NCBI GenBank assembly: GCA_029717555.1
Contig: JAMDHS010000015.1
Location: 124,001-188,000 of the forward strand
Origin: Peribolospora baueri
Taxonomy: Eukaryota > Basidiomycota > Peribolosporomycetes > Peribolosporales > Peribolosporaceae
DNA length: 64,000 bases
Direction of reading: 5' to 3'
Below the pieces are notes generated by a model. That model had not been told where the DNA came from. It did no database searches and worked only from the letters and a program-made list of their open reading frames with translations. Each line of letters begins with the position of its first letter. Position 1 is the stretch's first letter. The position numbers and the translations under genes were made by a program. Positions 41,940 to 57,453 of this stretch are shown here, in pieces.

Positions 41940-44856
41940 TCAAATCCCCCTGAACACGTTCTTGCTCGCCGATCGAACTTCACCCCGACTCCGCCTCTTC
42001 TGCCTCCCGAACCTCGCCTCCCCTTCCACGTTCGCCCCGTCCCCGCTCGCTCCGGCACCTCCTTTCTCCAGCCCGTGCCCAAACCGCTCCACTTTGCCCG
42101 CCGCGCCCGCACCAGTCCCAGCCGAGGCCGACGTTTTTCGCTTCTTCGACTCGCCAGAGGGGATGAAGGAGATGGAGCGATCGCCTCCTCCTCCTTTCCT
42201 GCCGCCCGAGGAGTCCCTACGGCCCCCTTTGGTCGCCGCATCTCCCTTTCGCATCCGCTCTCCAAACGTCGCCTTGCGCTTGACGTACCCTCCCGAGGAT
42301 GCCGTCCCTTCACCATCCGCATCGACCAGACGAGGTCGCGAGCCGGCCGACGCCGCCGCCGCCGATGACGACGACGACGACGGAGCGGGTGGACCGTTCT
42401 GTGCGACGGGTTGACGGTCTCGCTCACGGGGCTGTCCCTTCGATGGTCGAAATTGGCCGAGATCTGAGAGAAGGAAGACCGGCGGCAGTGGGGGACACAA
42501 AGTGTGCATGCGCGTATGGACGTTGAATAACGATCCGCTCGTCGATCGATCGGTTGTCGGTCCGAGAATGAACGAGGACACAGAGACTTACCTCCCTCGT
42601 CGCTGCTGTCTCCTGATTCGCCTTCGTCCTCGTTCTCACTGCTCCCCTCATCATCGTCGCTCGAGCCTCTCTCGCTCTCTTCTTCCTCCTCTTCCACCGC
42701 CGTCTTCTTCCGGCCCTGTCGCACCATAAGCAAGAAACCAAGCGAGATGGCATGAGCAAAGACAATCTCGCCGAGTGGACAACCTGTCGGAGCAACCGAC
42801 AGAAGCGACTGGGGACAAGAAACGCTCACCCCGCTAGCAGCAGTAGAAGGATTGAGGAGAGCGAATTCCCTGCTGGTGTCGTCGACCTCAAACTCGGGGT
42901 TCTCGAACATTGCGGCGAAACGCTCGTCTTTGAGCAACGACGGTGCAGACTTGGCCTTGTCATTTGTCTTCTTCCTCTTGTCTCCCTCTCCCCCGTCGTC
43001 TTCCTCCTCATCTCCTTCCTGTTCAGCAGCCTTACTGGCCCTCTTCTCAGTCCTCCTCCTCTCCTTTTCCTCCTTCTTCATCAGCGTCTCCGCCAGCTGC
43101 TTGTTGACCTTGGGCAGGTCCCGCTTAGCCTTGATCCTGCTCTCCGCCTGCTTCTCCATCTGCTCCTTCAGGACCTTCTCCTTGTGCTCCGCGTACAGCG
43201 TCGGATTGGCGATCAGTCGTGCCTTGTTATAAATCGGCAGGGACACGAAGAAGCCGTGCATGTACGGTTTCAGAAGGGCAGTGCCGACAAGGTGTTCCAT
43301 CCCGAGACTGTGGAAAGATGAGCACGTGCGCAGCATTTAGGATAAGTGATGATTGACGAGTGCGACGCGAGAGAGATATGACGATCTCAACGAACCTCGC
43401 GAGCTCCTTTCGATCAACAAACTTGTAGTCATCATACACCGTCGCCACCGCGTTCTCCTCCAGTTCCTCGGTGACATTGTCCAAGAAGGAGCACCAGCGC
43501 GGGGCGGGACCAAGTTGAGGAATGTAGTAGGTAGTCATCTGTACTCCCTCGTTGGCCATCATGATAAGGCCGGAAGAGGAGACATGATGGACGCAGTTGA
43601 TATCTGTCGTGGGTGTTATGGAAGTGAGGTTGGCGGCCTTGACGGACAATAAGACGAAGACCAATGAGCTTGGGACAAGTAGGGCGGGCTGAACAGTTGA
43701 GCGATCCCTTACCGTGTTCTTATCCCAGATCTTGATGACTTTGGCATCTGCGCTCAGAATCTTGCCCTCCGCCTCGTGTCTGCTCGAGCCCTCGGTCCAC
43801 TGCACCGTCTTGATCGGAAGACCATATCCTTGGTCCTTTACAGTGAAAGGTCTCGGGCTGCGTAAGTCGTAGAGCAATACGTGGCCGGTGGAAGTGCCAG
43901 CTGCGAGAGTGAGACCATCGGAGCGGCTGGCAAGAGCGGTGACTCCCAGAGGACGAGTGGAACTTTTTCCCTGGTCGTCCATCACGGCCGGCAGAGCAGA
44001 TGCGGAGGACAGCGACTGGACGACCTGCGGAACCGCCACCGAGAGAAGGCCCGCTCGTCGTCGGGAGCGCGGATCCCATAATTCCACCGTTCCCGGACCA
44101 TCCGTGCCGAAGGAGAGAAGCTGATGAGCGGGATTGATATCGATGACATTCACGCCCTGGACCTCGGCATCGCTTCCTTCCACGAAGCCAATTCCTTCGC
44201 CCATGACGTAAGGAGAAAGGAAACGTCCGTGATCAAGGTTGAGTCGGTAAACCTCATTCCCCGAGGCGGAGATAAGTGCGTCGCAAGAGGGAAAGTGGTA
44301 GGCAATGGAGCGGCCGAAGCGGGGGATGCGAGTACGATAGTGGAAACCGGCTTGGGTGTGCAGCTCGATAGAGCGGTCCGCCTGGAGGTGGACCGTCTTC
44401 GTCCAGTCGTCGGAGAGGATCTGAATAGGATGAGGATAATAATTCTTGAGCAACGAGATTCATCAGGGGAAGCTTTCCTCCTTTCCGCCCACTTACTTTA
44501 AAATCGACGTTCTCCGCGTCCGTGTGCCGCTCAAACTTCATCGCGAGCTGATACAAATCGTAGACCCTCATCTGAGGCTTGTAAGTGCCCGTGGCAATAG
44601 CATGCTTCCCATCGGGAGTGACCTCGATCTTGTTGCTCGCCTCCGGGAACTCAAAGTCCTGAATGAGCTCGATCCTGTCCGTCTCATCCTCGCGCCTCCG
44701 TCGTCGCTTCTTCTTCCAAGCAAGCGACTTTTGGAGGAAGGCCGGGGTGGCGGAGGAAGCGTTTGCGCCTGGAGTGTCGTTAGTGCGCGAGCCGCCTCCG
44801 GAGACGGTGTACACCTTGACGTTGCCCGTGCCTGCCGTTCCCAACGAGGTCACCAT
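41940..44856 (-). CDS. ENP2: Nucleolar protein Enp2/Nol10, ribosome biogenesis
   Basis: WD-repeat nucleolar protein of the small-subunit processome, required for 18S rRNA maturation. The N-terminus is GTAGTGNVKVYTVSGGG, then RIELIQDFEFPEASNKIEVT with GTYKPQMRVYDLYQLAMKFE, a typical Enp2 opening. The propeller continues through IPRFGRSIAYHFPSCDALIS, SGNEVYRLNLDHGRFL, LSFGTDGPGTVELWDPRSR, TSTGHVLLYDLRSPRPF and AKVIKIWDKNT. Past the propeller come APRWCSFLDNVTEELEE, YMHGFFVSLPIYNKARLI, and the NUC153 block LLKDERFAAMFENPEFEVDD. The last exons are acidic, then Ser- and Lys/Arg-rich, as expected for the nucleolar tail. About seven introns. It is divergent from the gene to its right with only 163 bases between the starts. 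Confidence 0.93.
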
Positions 44857-45019: not shown

Positions 45020-46917
45020 ATGTTGTCCCTCGTCGCCTCGCCGTATCGCGTGGCTCGCCTTCAGCGAGCTTGCGCACGTTGTTGCCAAGCCGCTTGCGCC
45101 CCGGGCACGACGCGAAGCTGGAGCTCGGTGCGCTCATTTGACCTTCCGATGGTTAGGTCACGGCCGTTCGGGCGCAACGATTCTCCTAATCACTTCAAAT
45201 CAGAGCCAGGAACGGCAGCTTCTCTATCCTCGTGGTTTCAACCAGTTTCTCCTCGACTTTTGCGAGGCGCTCGCGCTGAGAGCAGCTCTCGGTCGTCCAT
45301 CTTCGCCGGCGGCCTTGGCTCCTTCGCCTCCCAAGCCTTTGCTTCCACCGCCGTTCCGGTCCGCCTGTATTCTTTGTCTCGGTTTGCAGCACGAAGACAC
45401 CTCTCTACCGCCGCTTCTACCACGAGGGGTGGTACGCCGCCTCTACCGCGCCTCACCCCCCCAATCGTCGGCTACTGGCTGCTTTTCTCCGCCTCTCTCG
45501 TTTTCGGCATCGTCATCGTGGGTGGCCTCACCCGCCTTACCGAGAGCGGTCTCAGCATCACCGAGTGGAAGCCCGTGACGGGAGCGTTGCTACCCAGCGG
45601 GGAGGACGGTTGGGAGGAGGAGTTTCGCAAGTACAAAGAGACGCCCGAGTACTTGACGTGAGTGCGCTCTCGCTTGTCCACTCCTTGGACCGCAGCGCTG
45701 AATAGCTCCCCCCCTTACCTGCCGTCATTCCAGCATGAACTCGCACCTGACCCTCTCCGAGTTCAAGCGTATCTACATGTGGGAGTGGGCGCACCGGGTC
45801 TGGGGTCGGGCCATCGGTATCGCTTTTGTCCTTCCGGCCGCTTACTTTGCCGTGCGGGGCCAACTCAGCAAAGGCACCGGCGTGAAACTGCTCGCCATAG
45901 CCGGCGGCATCGGCTTCCAGGGCTTCCTAGGCTGGTACATGGTTCAGTCCGGTCTTGTGCCGGAGCACCTCTCCACGAATTCCGACCCGACCATACCGCG
46001 AGTTTCGCACTATCGTCTCGCCGCGCACCTCGGCACCGCCTTCCTCGTCTACGTTGCCATGCTCCTGACCGGAGTGGGCGTGTTGCGGGACTACAAGGCG
46101 GCGGTGGGCAAGGGGAAAGTGAGCGGAATGGATGTCTCCATCAAGGGAGGGCCCGAGTCGCTTCTCCGTGTCCTCGGCAGCGCTCAGCTGAGCCGCTACC
46201 GTAACGTGGCCAAGGGCGTCGCAGGTCTGGTCTTTTTGACGGCCATGTCCGGCGCTCTCGTCGCTGGTCTCGACGCTGGGCTGCTGTATAACGAGTTTCC
46301 GCTCATGGGAGGACGTCTCGTTCCGCCCAAGGACGAGCTCTTCGAGGACAAGTTTGCCAAGAAGGAGGACCGCAGCGACAAGTGGTGGCGGAACATGCTT
46401 GAGAACCCGACCACTGTGCAGTTTAACCACCGCGTCCTGGTGAGTGTCATTCCGTCTCGGCGCCCAGGCGTTCATATGCTCACAAGTTTCCTCTCGACAG
46501 GCCGTCACCACCGTCGCCGTCGTCCTAGCATTCCACTTGTACACGCGACGCCTCATGAAGCGACGCCTCGTCCTCCCGTCCTCCTCACCGTCTGCACGTC
46601 CGGCTCATCCCATTTCGGTCGCCTCTACCGTCCCTCTTCCCTCTTCACTCCCCGTCCTCCCGCCTCTGATCCCCAGGCTCACCGCCCTAGCCTCGCTCAT
46701 GGCGCTGACCCAAGCCTCGCTGGGGATCACCACGCTCCTCTACCTCGTTCCCATTCCCCTCGCAGCGGCTCACCAAGCGGGAAGTCTCCTTTTGCTCACG
46801 TCCATGCTCGCCGTCGTCGCCGCGGCCAGGATGCCTTCCAAGGTGGTGGAGGAGTGGAGGAGCGCGGTCCGGAAGAGGGCCTTAAACGGGGTCGCGCGCA
46901 AGGGCGAGCAGGCTTGA
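45020..46917 (+). CDS. COX15: Heme A synthase Cox15
   Basis: Inner mitochondrial membrane enzyme that oxidizes the C8 methyl of heme O to make heme A for cytochrome c oxidase. Three exons (45020-45657, 45734-46439, 46501-46917) give exactly 586 residues. A long Arg/Ser/Ala-rich presequence of about 140 residues precedes the first helix PIVGYWLLFSASLVFGIVIV. Conserved blocks follow: GGLTRLTESGLSITEWKPVT, FKRIYMWEWAHRVWGRAIGI with an invariant heme-ligand His, FQGFLGWYMVQSGL, HYRLAAHLGTAFLVY with further His, AGLDAGLLYNEFPLMGGRLV, and TVQFNHRVLAVTTVAVV. The C-terminal part has TALASLMALTQASLGITTLL and HQAGSLLLLTSMLAV. Length compares with about 490 in budding yeast; the excess is presequence and a Ser/Pro loop near residue 470. 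Confidence 0.97.
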
Positions 46918-48571: not shown

Positions 48572-50796
48572 ATGGTCAACCCCCTGCCCGTCGTCTTGCC
48601 CGAGGAGTGCAGAAAGGCGAGCAAGATCCTTAACGCCTTTGTCGGTGCGTACTTTCGCCTCGCGCCCCCTCTCCGTTCGTCTCCTCCAAGCTGAGTCCTG
48701 TCTTCGCCCTCTCTTCCGCAGACCCGGTGAACGGATTGGTGAGCTGCGTTGGATCGGCTGTCGTCCGCGTCCGCGTCGCCTCACCGCCCGGTCCCTTGCC
48801 TGCTCTCCACAGGACCGCGTCATCCCCGTATCGGTGCTCCGCAATGCCAAAGGATTTGCCATCTACAGCGTCGTCCGAGCCAGTGTGTACCCGCGCCTTG
48901 CCGTCGTCCCTCCCTCCTCCCGGCCGTCGTTCTCCTCTTCTCCCGCTCACTTCGTCCTTTCGCCTTGCACCCTCGCACGCCGCCGCGTAGGCTTCGTCAT
49001 CTCCGCCAGGGCAGGCTCGGGCATCGTCATCGCCCGATTACCCGACGGATGTGAGTGCCGTCGCTACGCCGACCCCGCCGCTGACCCGCCGCTGACACGT
49101 GTTGCCACACGCACAGCCTGGTCCGCACCCGCCGCCATCGGTATAGCCGGCTTGGGAGGAGGCTTCATCGCGGGCATCGAGCAGACGGACTTTGTGAGCA
49201 CCGCATGTACCTTTGACGTGTCGTGTCCTCCTTTTCTGCGCCCTCATTCCCTCGCTATCGTTCCCCGGACAGCTCGTCGTCCTCAACTCGCGATCGGCGG
49301 TCAAGTCCTTCATGGCCACCGGCTCGATCCAGCTCGGCGGCAACCTCAGCGTCGCCGCCGGTCCGCTCGGCCGTACCGCCGAAGGTTCCGCCTCGCTCAA
49401 TACCAAGTTCAAGCCGGCGGCCCTATTCTCTTATTCGAAGAGCAGGGGAATCTACGGGGTTCGTCCATCTCGCTCTTCTGTGCTCATGGACGACGTGCAG
49501 TAGTGACTCAAATTTGCGTCGTGTCCGCCGCGCACAGGGCGTCTCCGTCGAAGGCACCATCCTCGTGGACCGCTCGGACGCGAACGCGAAAGCCTACGGC
49601 GACCCGAGTATCACGGTCAAATACCTCCTCTCCGGCGTGACCCCGCCACCGGCGTGGGCGGATACGTTGATTGGCACGATCGAAAAGTTCACTAGCACGG
49701 GCCGCGCGGCCGAGGCCCGGGAGGCGGATTACGCGGCGGGCCTCGAGTACGACGCGGCGCCTCCCGGTTGGGGCGGAGGGAGGGCGAACACGCCTGAGGG
49801 TGTCGGTCTGGGCACGGGATATGCGTTCCGAAGCGGCAGCGTGGCGAGCCTGGAGGGGGGAGAGAGGCCGAAGCACAACCGCACGTTTAGCGCGCTCAGC
49901 TGGAAGAGTGGCAGCAGTGGCGGAGGTGGGCGGAATAGCCCGGCGGCGGGACGGAAGAGGTCGGGGTCCAACGCTCCCTCCTTGGCGTCCATCGGGCGGA
50001 CGGGCAGCGCTCTGAGCTTTACCAGCGGCCCGGGGACGACCAAATTGCCGAACGGCTACGGAGGTTATGGCTACGGCTCGTCTGGCGCCGGTGCTAACCC
50101 TTACGCAGAGCAGGACGCAGCGGCCCATTTAGAGCGCGCGACGCCGACTCGCACCCCGCCGCGGGCTAGCTCGGCCAATTCGTTGGCGCGGAGGAGGGGG
50201 GTGGAGCAGGCGTTGATCGACTTTAGCGAGGACAGAGAGGCGGAGGAGGAGGAGGAGGCGGCGGCGGCGCAGGTGCAAGGGCGAGGGGAGGAGGATGGGT
50301 ATGGGTATGGGTACGGCGACCAATACGGGTACGACAGCAGCGGTCGCGCAGACCCTTTCTCCTCCCCGCCCCTCTCCGCAGCCACCTCGTCCCACTTTGT
50401 CAGACACGGCGACGCGGCGTGGCCCACGTCGGCCGGCCTCGGTGAGGGCGGCGTTGGAGAGGACCGGTTCGGGACTGGTGGCGGCGATGGTGACGGCGGT
50501 GGAGCGGTGGGGAGGGCGGTGGCGTTGTATGATTTCGACGCGGTGGAGGTGAGCGACGACCAGGTCCACGCCATGTCGTCGTCGTCCTCCTCCTCCTCCT
50601 CTAAACTTGCCCGCGAGACTCACTCTTCCCTCCCCCGTTCACTCCCCCACAGTCTGGCGACCTCTCCTTCCGCCGCGGCGAAGTGATCACGGTCACCAAG
50701 CGTACGCCGTCCACGGACGATTGGTGGGAGGGCAAGATCGGCCCGAGAAGCGGGAGCTTCCCTGCGAATTACATAGAGATGGTGGACGAGGCCTAG
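48572..50796 (+). CDS. Ysc84/SH3YL1-type actin patch protein (SYLF and SH3 domains)
   Basis: Homologue of yeast Ysc84/Lsb3 and human SH3YL1, which bind phosphoinositides and actin and act in endocytosis at cortical patches. The N-terminus is [20 protein letters not shown]. The SYLF domain follows: [100 protein letters not shown] and [21 protein letters not shown] Gly/Ser/Tyr-rich disordered linker of about 270 residues follows, with a Glu run and [15 protein letters not shown]. The C-terminal SH3 domain starts ALYDFDAVE, is split by an intron, and continues [37 protein letters not shown]. Eight or so introns. The start ATG is directly at the conserved N-terminus. Confidence 0.95.
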
Positions 50797-55235: not shown

Positions 55236-57453
55236 TCAAATCTTCGCCTCGCGGTGGTTCTTGACCTCGCGCTTCCGCTCCTCGGCCCACAACGGGCCGT
55301 TCTTTCCCAAGGCGTCGCGAACGTGCTCGATGAAATACTCCGGTACTTCCTGTGGAGCGAACGTTCGACCGGAGAGGAAAAGAAACGCGGGTCGACTCAT
55401 GGTTCGTTGGGAAAGGAGACGAGGCGCCACGCTCGGCACCGTGTTCGGGAGACGCTCACCGTAGCTGCAAAATGGCCTCCTTCGGGAGCGTCTGCGAGCC
55501 AACGTAGAACGGCGGCGCGGGGCAGAAGAAAGACGGGCGGTCAGGAAGAGGGGTCTGACCGACGGCGAGGTACGAGTCGCTCACTCTTGTACCACACCAA
55601 GTTGGCCGTCCTGGCGACCCAGGCTTTGGGCACGGTGACGAGCTCGGAAGGGAAGACGCTCATGGCGGTGGGCACGTTGATGTGGAAAGCGGGATCGGAG
55701 AGATAGGAGGTGAAGTAGGGGTTGTTTGCGTAGGGGTGGAAGGAGGTGCCGACGGAGCGGGTAAGGTGGTAAAGCGTGATCTGGATGAGGGCGTGCTCTG
55801 AGGACATGCTACGCATGGACGAGGTGTGTGACAAAAGGCGGACAGAAGAGCGAAACGCAAGGAAGCCGAGGAGAAAGGGTGACCGTGTTAGGTCGCGACG
55901 AGGGCCGTGCCGTGGGGACATCGTCTTCTCCCCGCATTCACACACCTGGTGTCACGGCCAGCCCGCGGACGGAAGCGCTGGAGGTAATACTTCTCTCCTA
56001 TGTAGGCAAGCACGCCGATGGGGGAGTCGAGCAGTCCATAGGCCAAAGTCGTGGGCTGTCCATGGGGAAGGGAGAGGGAATATGAGTACCACAAGCGAGG
56101 GACCGGCTCGAAAGCGGGAAGAAAAGCTCACACGGTCCGCCTGGATCGCATAGTAAGCCGGACGCTCGCTGCCTCGTGGGACCAACTTGAGACTCTGTAC
56201 CTCCTTCTCTGTCAACACGAGCCGCGCGAGGGCTGTGGTGACAAAGGTAGGCAGGGTCGCCACGAGCGTGGTAAGCCAAGACGGAGGGGGGGCGGGGCAA
56301 AAGTTGAGATGGACGGCTGAGGGAGACGAGGGACAGAAGCGGAAGGTGAGCGAGAGCAGAGTCGGTCGAGCGAGCGGCGCGCAGCAGATCACCTCTGCAG
56401 TGGTCGGGGTGCTGACTGGCGAGACAGCGAACGGCGATGGAGCCCCAATCTACAAAAAGCGGATGAAGAGACTCGGGCGCAGTGAGCCAAGGCCGGGCAG
56501 GGAAGGGAGCACCGGCCGCTCACCGCCACCCTGAGCGGCGTAGCGATCGTAGCCGAGTCCGAGCATGAGCTTGTTGAGCTTGGCGGCCATGGCCGGCATG
56601 GAGCTGCCTTTGCGAGTGCACGGCGGCGAAGAGAAGATGAAAGAGGGGAGGGAGGGGACGACTACGTGGAAGGCTGTGAGATGTAGGCGGGACGACAGAC
56701 GCGTGAGCGGCGAGGTAAGAAAGTGTGAATGTGAAACAAGGGGACATGGACGACGGGTGGCGATCGCACCTTGGGCATCACGAGCGCGAGGGTTAGAGAG
56801 CTGGTCCATGACGGGGAAGAACTCGTAGAAGGTGCCTTGTGATCCGATGGCAGCAAGCGCGCGTCAGTCTCGACCGCAGGCGAGCGAACCCGACACACTC
56901 TCTCACTCACCCGGCCACTATGCGGTGCGCAAAAGCAAGCGCGTTGGTCAGCGGCAGAACGCTCCACAAGCCGAGCGAGGTGACGGCGTTGCAGAAAGGA
57001 GCGAAACTCACCCCGTGTACGAGGATGAGGGGGATGGCGTCCGGCTCGGGGGAAGGAAGATGGACGTAGTGAAGGTCGACTGGGTCGACGCTGCGCTCGT
57101 CGATGAGGACCTTGTAGTGCGGGAACCTAGGCCAAGTCCGGCATGGATGGGCACGTCCATCCGTCAGCGCTCCCATCCGGTCAGAAGGAGCGGGGCGAGG
57201 CTCGAGGCACGCACTTGTTGAGCTCCCTCTCCACGTCCTTCCACCTAGCCTCCTCGAGCAAGTCAAGCCACTCCTTGGCCATATCATTCACCCACTGAAG
57301 CGGCGCGCCCGTCTTCCATTCGTCCGCTTCGGCCATCCACACATAGTCGTCGCCTAGCGGTAGGGACGCCTCGAGCTTGGCTCGTAGGGCGGATACCTCG
57401 GCGGGGGAGAAGTTGACTTGGAACGGCCTGGGAGAAAAGGTCGAGCTAGCCAT
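55236..57453 (-). CDS. Epoxide hydrolase (alpha/beta hydrolase, EHN family)
   Basis: Microsomal-type epoxide hydrolase, opening epoxides to diols by a two-step ester mechanism. The N-terminal EHN domain is FQVNFSPAEVSALRAKLEAS, then TGAPLQWVNDMAKEWLDLLE, FPHYKVLID, VDLHYVHLPS and IPLILVHG. The oxyanion motif HGWPGTFYEFFPVMDQLSN is assembled through a 7-base microexon. The nucleophile is the Asp of AAQGGDWGSIAVRCLASQHP, and the C-terminal catalytic His is in NAPEGGHFAATEVPEYFIEH, itself on a 32-base exon. HLNFCPAPPPSW and PTTLAYGLLDSPIGVLAYIG are also family blocks. About ten introns, all keeping frame where checked. No N-terminal membrane anchor is apparent. Fungal members include enzymes for limonene and styrene epoxides, but the substrate here is not known. 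Confidence 0.94.
56911..56917 (-). other. Predicted 7-nt microexon of the epoxide hydrolase gene
   Basis: On the minus strand the seven bases TGGCCGG are preceded by CGCATAG and followed by GTGAGTGA. They join CAC-GGG from the exon upstream to GC-ACC downstream, giving His-Gly-Trp-Pro-Gly-Thr. The Trp-Pro of HGWPG is invariant in this family and is part of the oxyanion hole. Skipping the microexon shifts the frame. Confidence 0.85.

Follow-up and report, generated by a model that had tools for sequence, protein, structure and literature searches.

A seven-nucleotide exon within the HGWPG motif of a predicted Peribolospora baueri epoxide hydrolase gene, and an intron-free copy in the same genome

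We analyzed a 64,000-nucleotide stretch of the Peribolospora baueri genome (the window; C66:124001-188000 in a genome of 22.1 Mb and 178 contigs) and found that a predicted epoxide hydrolase gene, EH1, carries an internal exon of 7 nt. This exon (TGGCCGG) encodes the Trp-Pro of the HGWPG motif and the first base of its last Gly codon. In the reading that we hold with high confidence, the exon would be included constitutively between two intron-defined introns, and an intron-free gene on contig C123 would be a retrocopy of the spliced mRNA. What the sequence itself shows are the exon boundaries, the reading frame, the motif, the intron-free copy, intron positions shared with a paralog, and the signature of constraint on the copy.

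EH1 extends from 57453 to 55236 on the minus strand of the window and was modeled by hand as 11 exons encoding 432 aa, with ten introns of 74-137 nt that are all of the GT-AG type. The hand model and a blind protein-to-genome spliced alignment agree on EH1. Its exons and first three introns are given below in window coordinates, with the support for exon boundaries in parentheses.

57215..57453, minus strand: exon 1, 239 nt, start codon at 57453 (hand model, blind spliced alignment)
57127..57214, minus strand: intron 1, 88 nt, GTGCGT...TAG, position and phase equal in the C120 paralog
57012..57126, minus strand: exon 2, terminal CAC GGG encoding His-Gly of HGWPG (hand model, spliced alignment)
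56918..57011, minus strand: intron 2, 94 nt, GTGAGT donor, CTGAC 34 nt from the 3' end
56911..56917, minus strand: exon 3, the 7-nt microexon TGGCCGG, encoding Trp-Pro and the first base of Gly
56836..56910, minus strand: intron 3, 75 nt, GTGAGT donor, CTGAC 32 nt from the 3' end, AAG end
56770..56835, minus strand: exon 4, beginning GC-ACC-TTC, which completes Gly and continues as TFYEFF (hand model, spliced alignment)
56524..56673, minus strand: exon 5 (hand model, intron-free copy, spliced alignment)
56393..56449, minus strand: exon 6, 5' junction within the Asp codon of GGDWG (hand model, intron-free copy, spliced alignment)
56132..56316, minus strand: exon 7 (hand model, intron-free copy, spliced alignment)
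55946..56055, minus strand: exon 8 (hand model, intron-free copy, spliced alignment with 4 of 5 homologs)
55585..55808, minus strand: exon 9 (hand model, intron-free copy, spliced alignment with 4 of 5 homologs)
55460..55491, minus strand: exon 10, 32 nt, encoding GGHFAAT with a catalytic-type His (hand model, intron-free copy, spliced alignment)
55236..55349, minus strand: exon 11, including the TGA stop codon at 55238-55236 (hand model, intron-free copy, stop check)

The predicted protein matches the profiles of the EHN domain (PF06441, residues 8-126, E-value 1.6e-26) and the alpha/beta-hydrolase domain (PF00561, E-value 6.5e-17), both above the curated cut-offs, and its residues 4-404 align with epoxide hydrolases of solved structure (e.g., PDB 6ix4, E-value 1.6e-56). 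Its best protein matches come from basidiomycetes (Sporobolomyces, Mixia, Rhodotorula and relatives) at approximately 39-43% identity. HGWPG, GGDWG and GGHF, which we take to be the oxyanion hole, the nucleophile elbow and the histidine motif, respectively, are all present in the spliced protein and align to PDB epoxide hydrolases; the elbow of 6ix4 reads GGDIG, versus GGDWG in EH1. EH1 is thus an intron-dense gene for a fungal epoxide hydrolase of the microsomal type (EHN plus alpha/beta-hydrolase) with predicted activity. It is adjoined on the same strand by a SIR2-family gene (window 54434-53798, minus strand; best PDB match sirtuin-2), the modeled part of which has ordinary exons. NOL10/ENP2-like (41949-44826, minus strand) and COX15-like (45734-46854, plus strand) genes neighbor each other on opposite strands.

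Exon 3 lies exactly where the original prediction had placed it, to the base, between an upstream ...CGCATAG and a downstream GTGAGT; GT-AG introns flank it on both sides (GTGAGT...ATAG and GTGAGT...CAAG), and it is a microexon in the sense of an internal spliceosomal exon of ≤30 nt. The boundaries proposed for its neighbors (end of exon 2 at 57012, start of exon 4 at 56835) are also right. When CAC GGG of exon 2, TGG CCG G of exon 3 and GC ACC TTC of exon 4 are joined, they encode HGWPGTF, and the spliced coding sequence contains HGWPGTFYEFF in frame, as had been claimed. The frameshift expected from direct joining of exons 2 and 4 does occur and leads to a stop after 143 aa. The conserved reading frame of EH1 therefore requires exon 3, as judged by joins, stop positions and spliced alignment. 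The further proposal that a catalytic motif is divided over three exons is borne out by the model and by spliced alignment with 30 of 30 homologs.

In that alignment, an exon at 56917-56911 was placed with every one of the 30 homologs (P0001-P0030, the best 30 of 120 listed), and it was kept in 5 of 5 homologs across intron penalties from -5 to -40. The HGWPG motif itself is found in 117 of 120 homologs among the matches listed. With the seven letters of the exon masked, it was still chosen in 30/30 cases, because its splice sites and phases fit. The aligner can use neither exons of 1-2 nt within one codon nor GC-AG introns, and its errors in EH1 were a false 15-nt exon at 57169-57155, which arose with 2 of the 30 homologs, and misplaced junctions near 55971-55780 with P0010.

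Joins between exons 2 and 4 were enumerated over GT-AG sites downstream of approximately 57066, with introns of at least 45 nt and a middle exon of ≤60 nt. Among 107 one-intron joins, 14 were open and in frame and 0 contained HG..G; among 805 two-intron joins, 203 were open and in frame and a single one, which is exon 3, contained HG.PG. The other 911 of the 912 candidate joins lack the motif and were rejected. When 57011-56836 was shuffled 20,000 times with dinucleotides preserved, the pattern AG-TGGCCNG-GT arose once, and never when consensus ends were required. Splice signals alone are no proof of this exon, since scanning the window loosely for AG-N(1-15)-GT flanked on each side by a branch-like site returned 14 rows, 2 of them at the place of exon 3.

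A search of the genome with PF06441 and the EH1 protein returned two further genes of this kind, one without and one with introns:

L006:3399-4699 (G000:C123:403898-405198), plus strand: intron-free copy, placed by alignment to the spliced EH1 coding sequence
L007:4190-1882 (G000:C120), minus strand: C120 paralog, the third epoxide hydrolase gene, intron-bearing, 11 exons

The intron-free copy, together with the spliced alignment with 30/30 homologs, provides evidence beyond that of the original prediction. It is identical to the spliced EH1 coding sequence in 1023 of 1333 columns (77%, gap columns included), contains TGGCCGG, and crosses 9 of the 10 EH1 joins without a gap, including both joins of the microexon; the introns of the parent are thus precisely absent at 9/10 joins, and the exon 1/2 join falls in a diverged stretch with several indels. 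The copy agrees with the presence of exon 3 in mature EH1 mRNA, as would be expected if an mRNA spliced with exon 3 had once been reverse-transcribed. Across three gap-free blocks (382 codons, two stops skipped), dN was 0.124 and dS 0.615, a ratio of 0.20, and differences by codon position numbered 59/34/123. A copy free of selection since its origin would push the ratio for the pair to approximately 0.5 or more; the observed value therefore points to past purifying selection on the C123 copy for much of its life. At present its reading frame is broken in the vicinity of the exon 1/2 region, and a stop codon stands ahead of the usual one, with nine codons between the two. The surrounding sequence (L006 3001-5400) contains no A or T run of at least 7, so retroposition is read from the loss of introns; given a dS of 0.6, a poly(A) tract may have been erased, and a target-site duplication would hardly be expected to persist. 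The C123 copy is probably an old retrogene.

Intron history was compared among EH1 and its C120 and C123 paralogs in this one genome, with C120 serving as outgroup by its lower identity to EH1 (157 of 446 aligned residues) rather than by a tree. Homologs disagreed at the first introns of C120, and exons 1 and 2 were settled by hand; its model includes a 19-nt exon (L007 2852-2834). EH1 and C120 have ten introns each, of which 3 coincide in codon and phase and another 2 lie within 2 nt of each other. These shared introns indicate that introns predate the split, so that the C123 gene would have lost them, most simply through reverse transcription of a spliced mRNA. EH1 intron 2 is offset by 2 nt from a C120 intron and is likely homologous to it. 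Intron 3 has no counterpart in C120, in which the motif and the next codons lie in one exon. The microexon thus exists because intron 3 sits 7 nt from an apparently older intron 2. With a single paralog, gain of intron 3 in EH1 and its loss in C120 both fit; our reading supposes a gain.

Among the ten EH1 introns, GTGAGT donors are found in introns 2 and 3 only, and a CTGAC branch-point-like site within 45 nt of the 3' end occurs in both of these and, among the other eight, in intron 1 only. The AAG acceptor of intron 3 is the only one in the gene and is a point against our reading. The ordinary length of introns 2 and 3, their GTGAGT donors and their CTGAC sites suggest that exon 3 splicing is intron-defined and constitutive. 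In the mechanism that we infer, the downstream intron sits in the last Gly codon of HGWPG, 7 nt past the apparently older one, and TGGCCGG would be left between introns 2 and 3 as a constitutive microexon. Each intron would probably be recognized as a unit across its own length, and the two removed one after the other, in which case the size of exon 3 would be irrelevant and it would need no recognition of its own. According to the part of PMC11121469 drawn on here, fungal microexons have been experimentally tested only in fission yeast; that article cites Romfo et al. 2000, the title of which refers to splice-site pairing by intron definition. Of the 432 aa of EH1, skipping of exon 3 would leave 143 before a premature stop, retention of intron 3 would leave 122 and retention of intron 2 would leave 165, and since all three mis-spliced forms stop at 122-165 aa, inclusion of exon 3 is needed for the enzyme.

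We considered it extremely unlikely that there is no microexon, whether because a single intron with different boundaries separates exons 2 and 4 or because EH1 is a pseudogene disrupted here. The 14 rows of the loose window scan are what such an explanation can draw on, as signals of this kind are no proof by themselves, but 0 of the 107 one-intron joins, all of the GT-AG type, give HGWPG or HG..G, the remaining ten exons are open and show homology along almost their full length, and the intron-free C123 copy itself carries TGGCCGG. It is likewise very improbable that the intron-free form is ancestral and that all ten introns of EH1 are later gains, two of which happen to enclose the microexon. 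Homology between EH1 and the C123 copy is seen only within the coding region (flanks compared by eye), and the copy bears no poly(A) or other mark of retroposition, both of which would suit this order of events. Against it stand the 3 of 10 introns shared with C120 in codon and phase and the 2 more within 2 nt, together with the 77% DNA identity of C123 to EH1 versus 157/446 residues for C120, which makes C120 the natural outgroup.

A regulated switch, in which skipping of exon 3 introduces a premature stop and so shuts down the enzyme by decay of its mRNA, would resemble the case of Trichoderma virens Xlr2, and we regard it as improbable here. The stop after 143 aa upon skipping and the gene's only AAG acceptor, in intron 3, would fit such a switch, and a regulated microexon has been published for a filamentous fungus, the alternatively spliced and glucose-regulated microexon of Xlr2 (PMC11121469, in the part drawn on here). 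However, among the ten donors of the gene only the two that flank exon 3 read GTGAGT, both introns have CTGAC near the 3' end, and exon 3 encodes part of the catalytic core rather than a modular insert. Both are fungal microexons; unlike that of Xlr2, the EH1 exon shows nothing of regulation, and the sequence gives no clear sign of it. We give little credence to the idea that splicing of exon 3 acts as a checkpoint on the catalytic core, with the strongest donors kept for this purpose and the C123 copy selected as free of the step. Constitutive inclusion of a 7-nt exon between two intron-defined introns remains our preferred reading.

To assess how frequent such exons are, we tallied 41 internal exons from nine genes (EH1, 9; C120, 9; NOL10, 4; COX15, 2; CCT eta, 4; CCT delta, 5; CCT epsilon, 3; CCT alpha, 4; SIR2, 1). 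First and last exons were excluded, as were a Ysc84-like gene read by eye, the two 5'-most CCT-eta rows (one of them a spurious exon of 10 nt where the end has diverged) and the disagreeing 5' part of COX15 (spurious 16- and 28-nt exons); NOL10 was counted by P0121, and the models from P0122 and P0229 show differences in the 3' half and one frameshift each. Two of the 41 exons are shorter than 30 nt, namely the 7-nt exon of EH1 and the 19-nt exon of C120. The original prediction stands as regards the microexon and its ends, the reasoning from the frame, and the motif. It had also supposed microexon splicing to be habitual in the species, and this is not supported by our small sample, in which 1 of 41 internal exons is shorter than 15 nt: tiny exons occur but are not frequent in these nine genes. 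Nor could its 3-nt exon elsewhere in the window be confirmed; none is used in the modeled window genes. The 3-nt exon pattern had 21 matches, of which 4 had a branch-point-like site no more than 60 nt away, and no such exon was needed in SIR2, NOL10, COX15 (modeled), Ysc84 or parts of a polymerase gene (by eye), a check that left out the RhoGEF, MFS and CBS/PB1 regions. The Ysc84-like gene has, by eye, a 17-nt exon (ACCCGGTGAACGGATTG; window 48722-48738, plus strand). A three-residue alignment gap in CCT-alpha was considered as a second microexon and rejected, being a GC-AG intron that the aligner cannot use (L058:1898-1969, plus strand; AACG|GCAAGT...CACAG|AC). GC-AG introns are reported for bglA genes of basidiomycetous yeasts in the part of PMC9142197 drawn on here.

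Exon 3 of EH1 is a well-supported further case of the already known fungal microexons, which we describe from the portions of the cited articles drawn on here. CYP621A P450 genes of Fusarium contain, within the PKG motif, an exon of a single nucleotide (Nelson and Syed 2026; PMC12940212). The case for it was made in part by comparison with an intronless relative, and RNA reads from two species, as well as 20 orthologs, support it. EH1 resembles it as a fungal gene with a tiny exon inside a conserved motif, a direct join that breaks the frame, and evidence from an intronless relative and phase incompatibility; it differs in that the CYP621A exon is 1 nt long, RNA-backed and in an ascomycete P450, whereas that of EH1 is 7 nt long and predicted from genomic sequence, and in that the intronless relative of EH1 is in the same genome. 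Exons down to 6 nt are described for the Phanerochaete P450ome (PMC1184071), and Phanerochaete chrysosporium CYP5141A1 has an 8-nt exon (gg/cac/gag) in its I-helix motif (PMC12940212). The latter is likewise a basidiomycete exon of nearly equal size inside a catalytic-core motif. We take CYP5141A1 to belong to a different protein family and lineage from EH1. The bglA genes of basidiomycetous yeasts encode enzymes, are intron-dense and, as established by comparison with cDNA, include exons as short as 5-6 nt. The authors of that study regard microexons as putatively common in genes of this sort; Rhodotorula minuta bglA alone has 10 exons shorter than 30 nt (PMC9142197). EH1 is similarly an intron-dense enzyme gene with a tiny exon, whereas bglA encodes a GH1 beta-glycosidase and the short-exon count in R. 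minuta is far above that of any gene modeled here. What is distinctive for EH1 is an epoxide hydrolase motif spread over three exons and an intron-free copy in the same genome. A literature survey of limited coverage (titles and abstract openings) on epoxide hydrolase genes and short exons in basidiomycete yeasts yielded no structure of EH1, and PMC3990503, in the part drawn on here, gives only a setting for read mapping; we do not claim exon 3 as unpublished, as Rhodotorula epoxide hydrolase cloning papers, for example, lie outside the survey.

EH1 provides a clear test case for gene finders, in that the enzyme appears defective in any gene model that does not admit a 7-nt exon, and an automated pipeline overlooking an exon of this size would mistake the gene for an inactive one. 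The intron-free C123 copy would serve, within the same genome, as a natural record of EH1 splicing. The gene also suggests a route by which a microexon may arise, through the arrival of an intron within a few bases of one that is older, here inside a catalytic motif.
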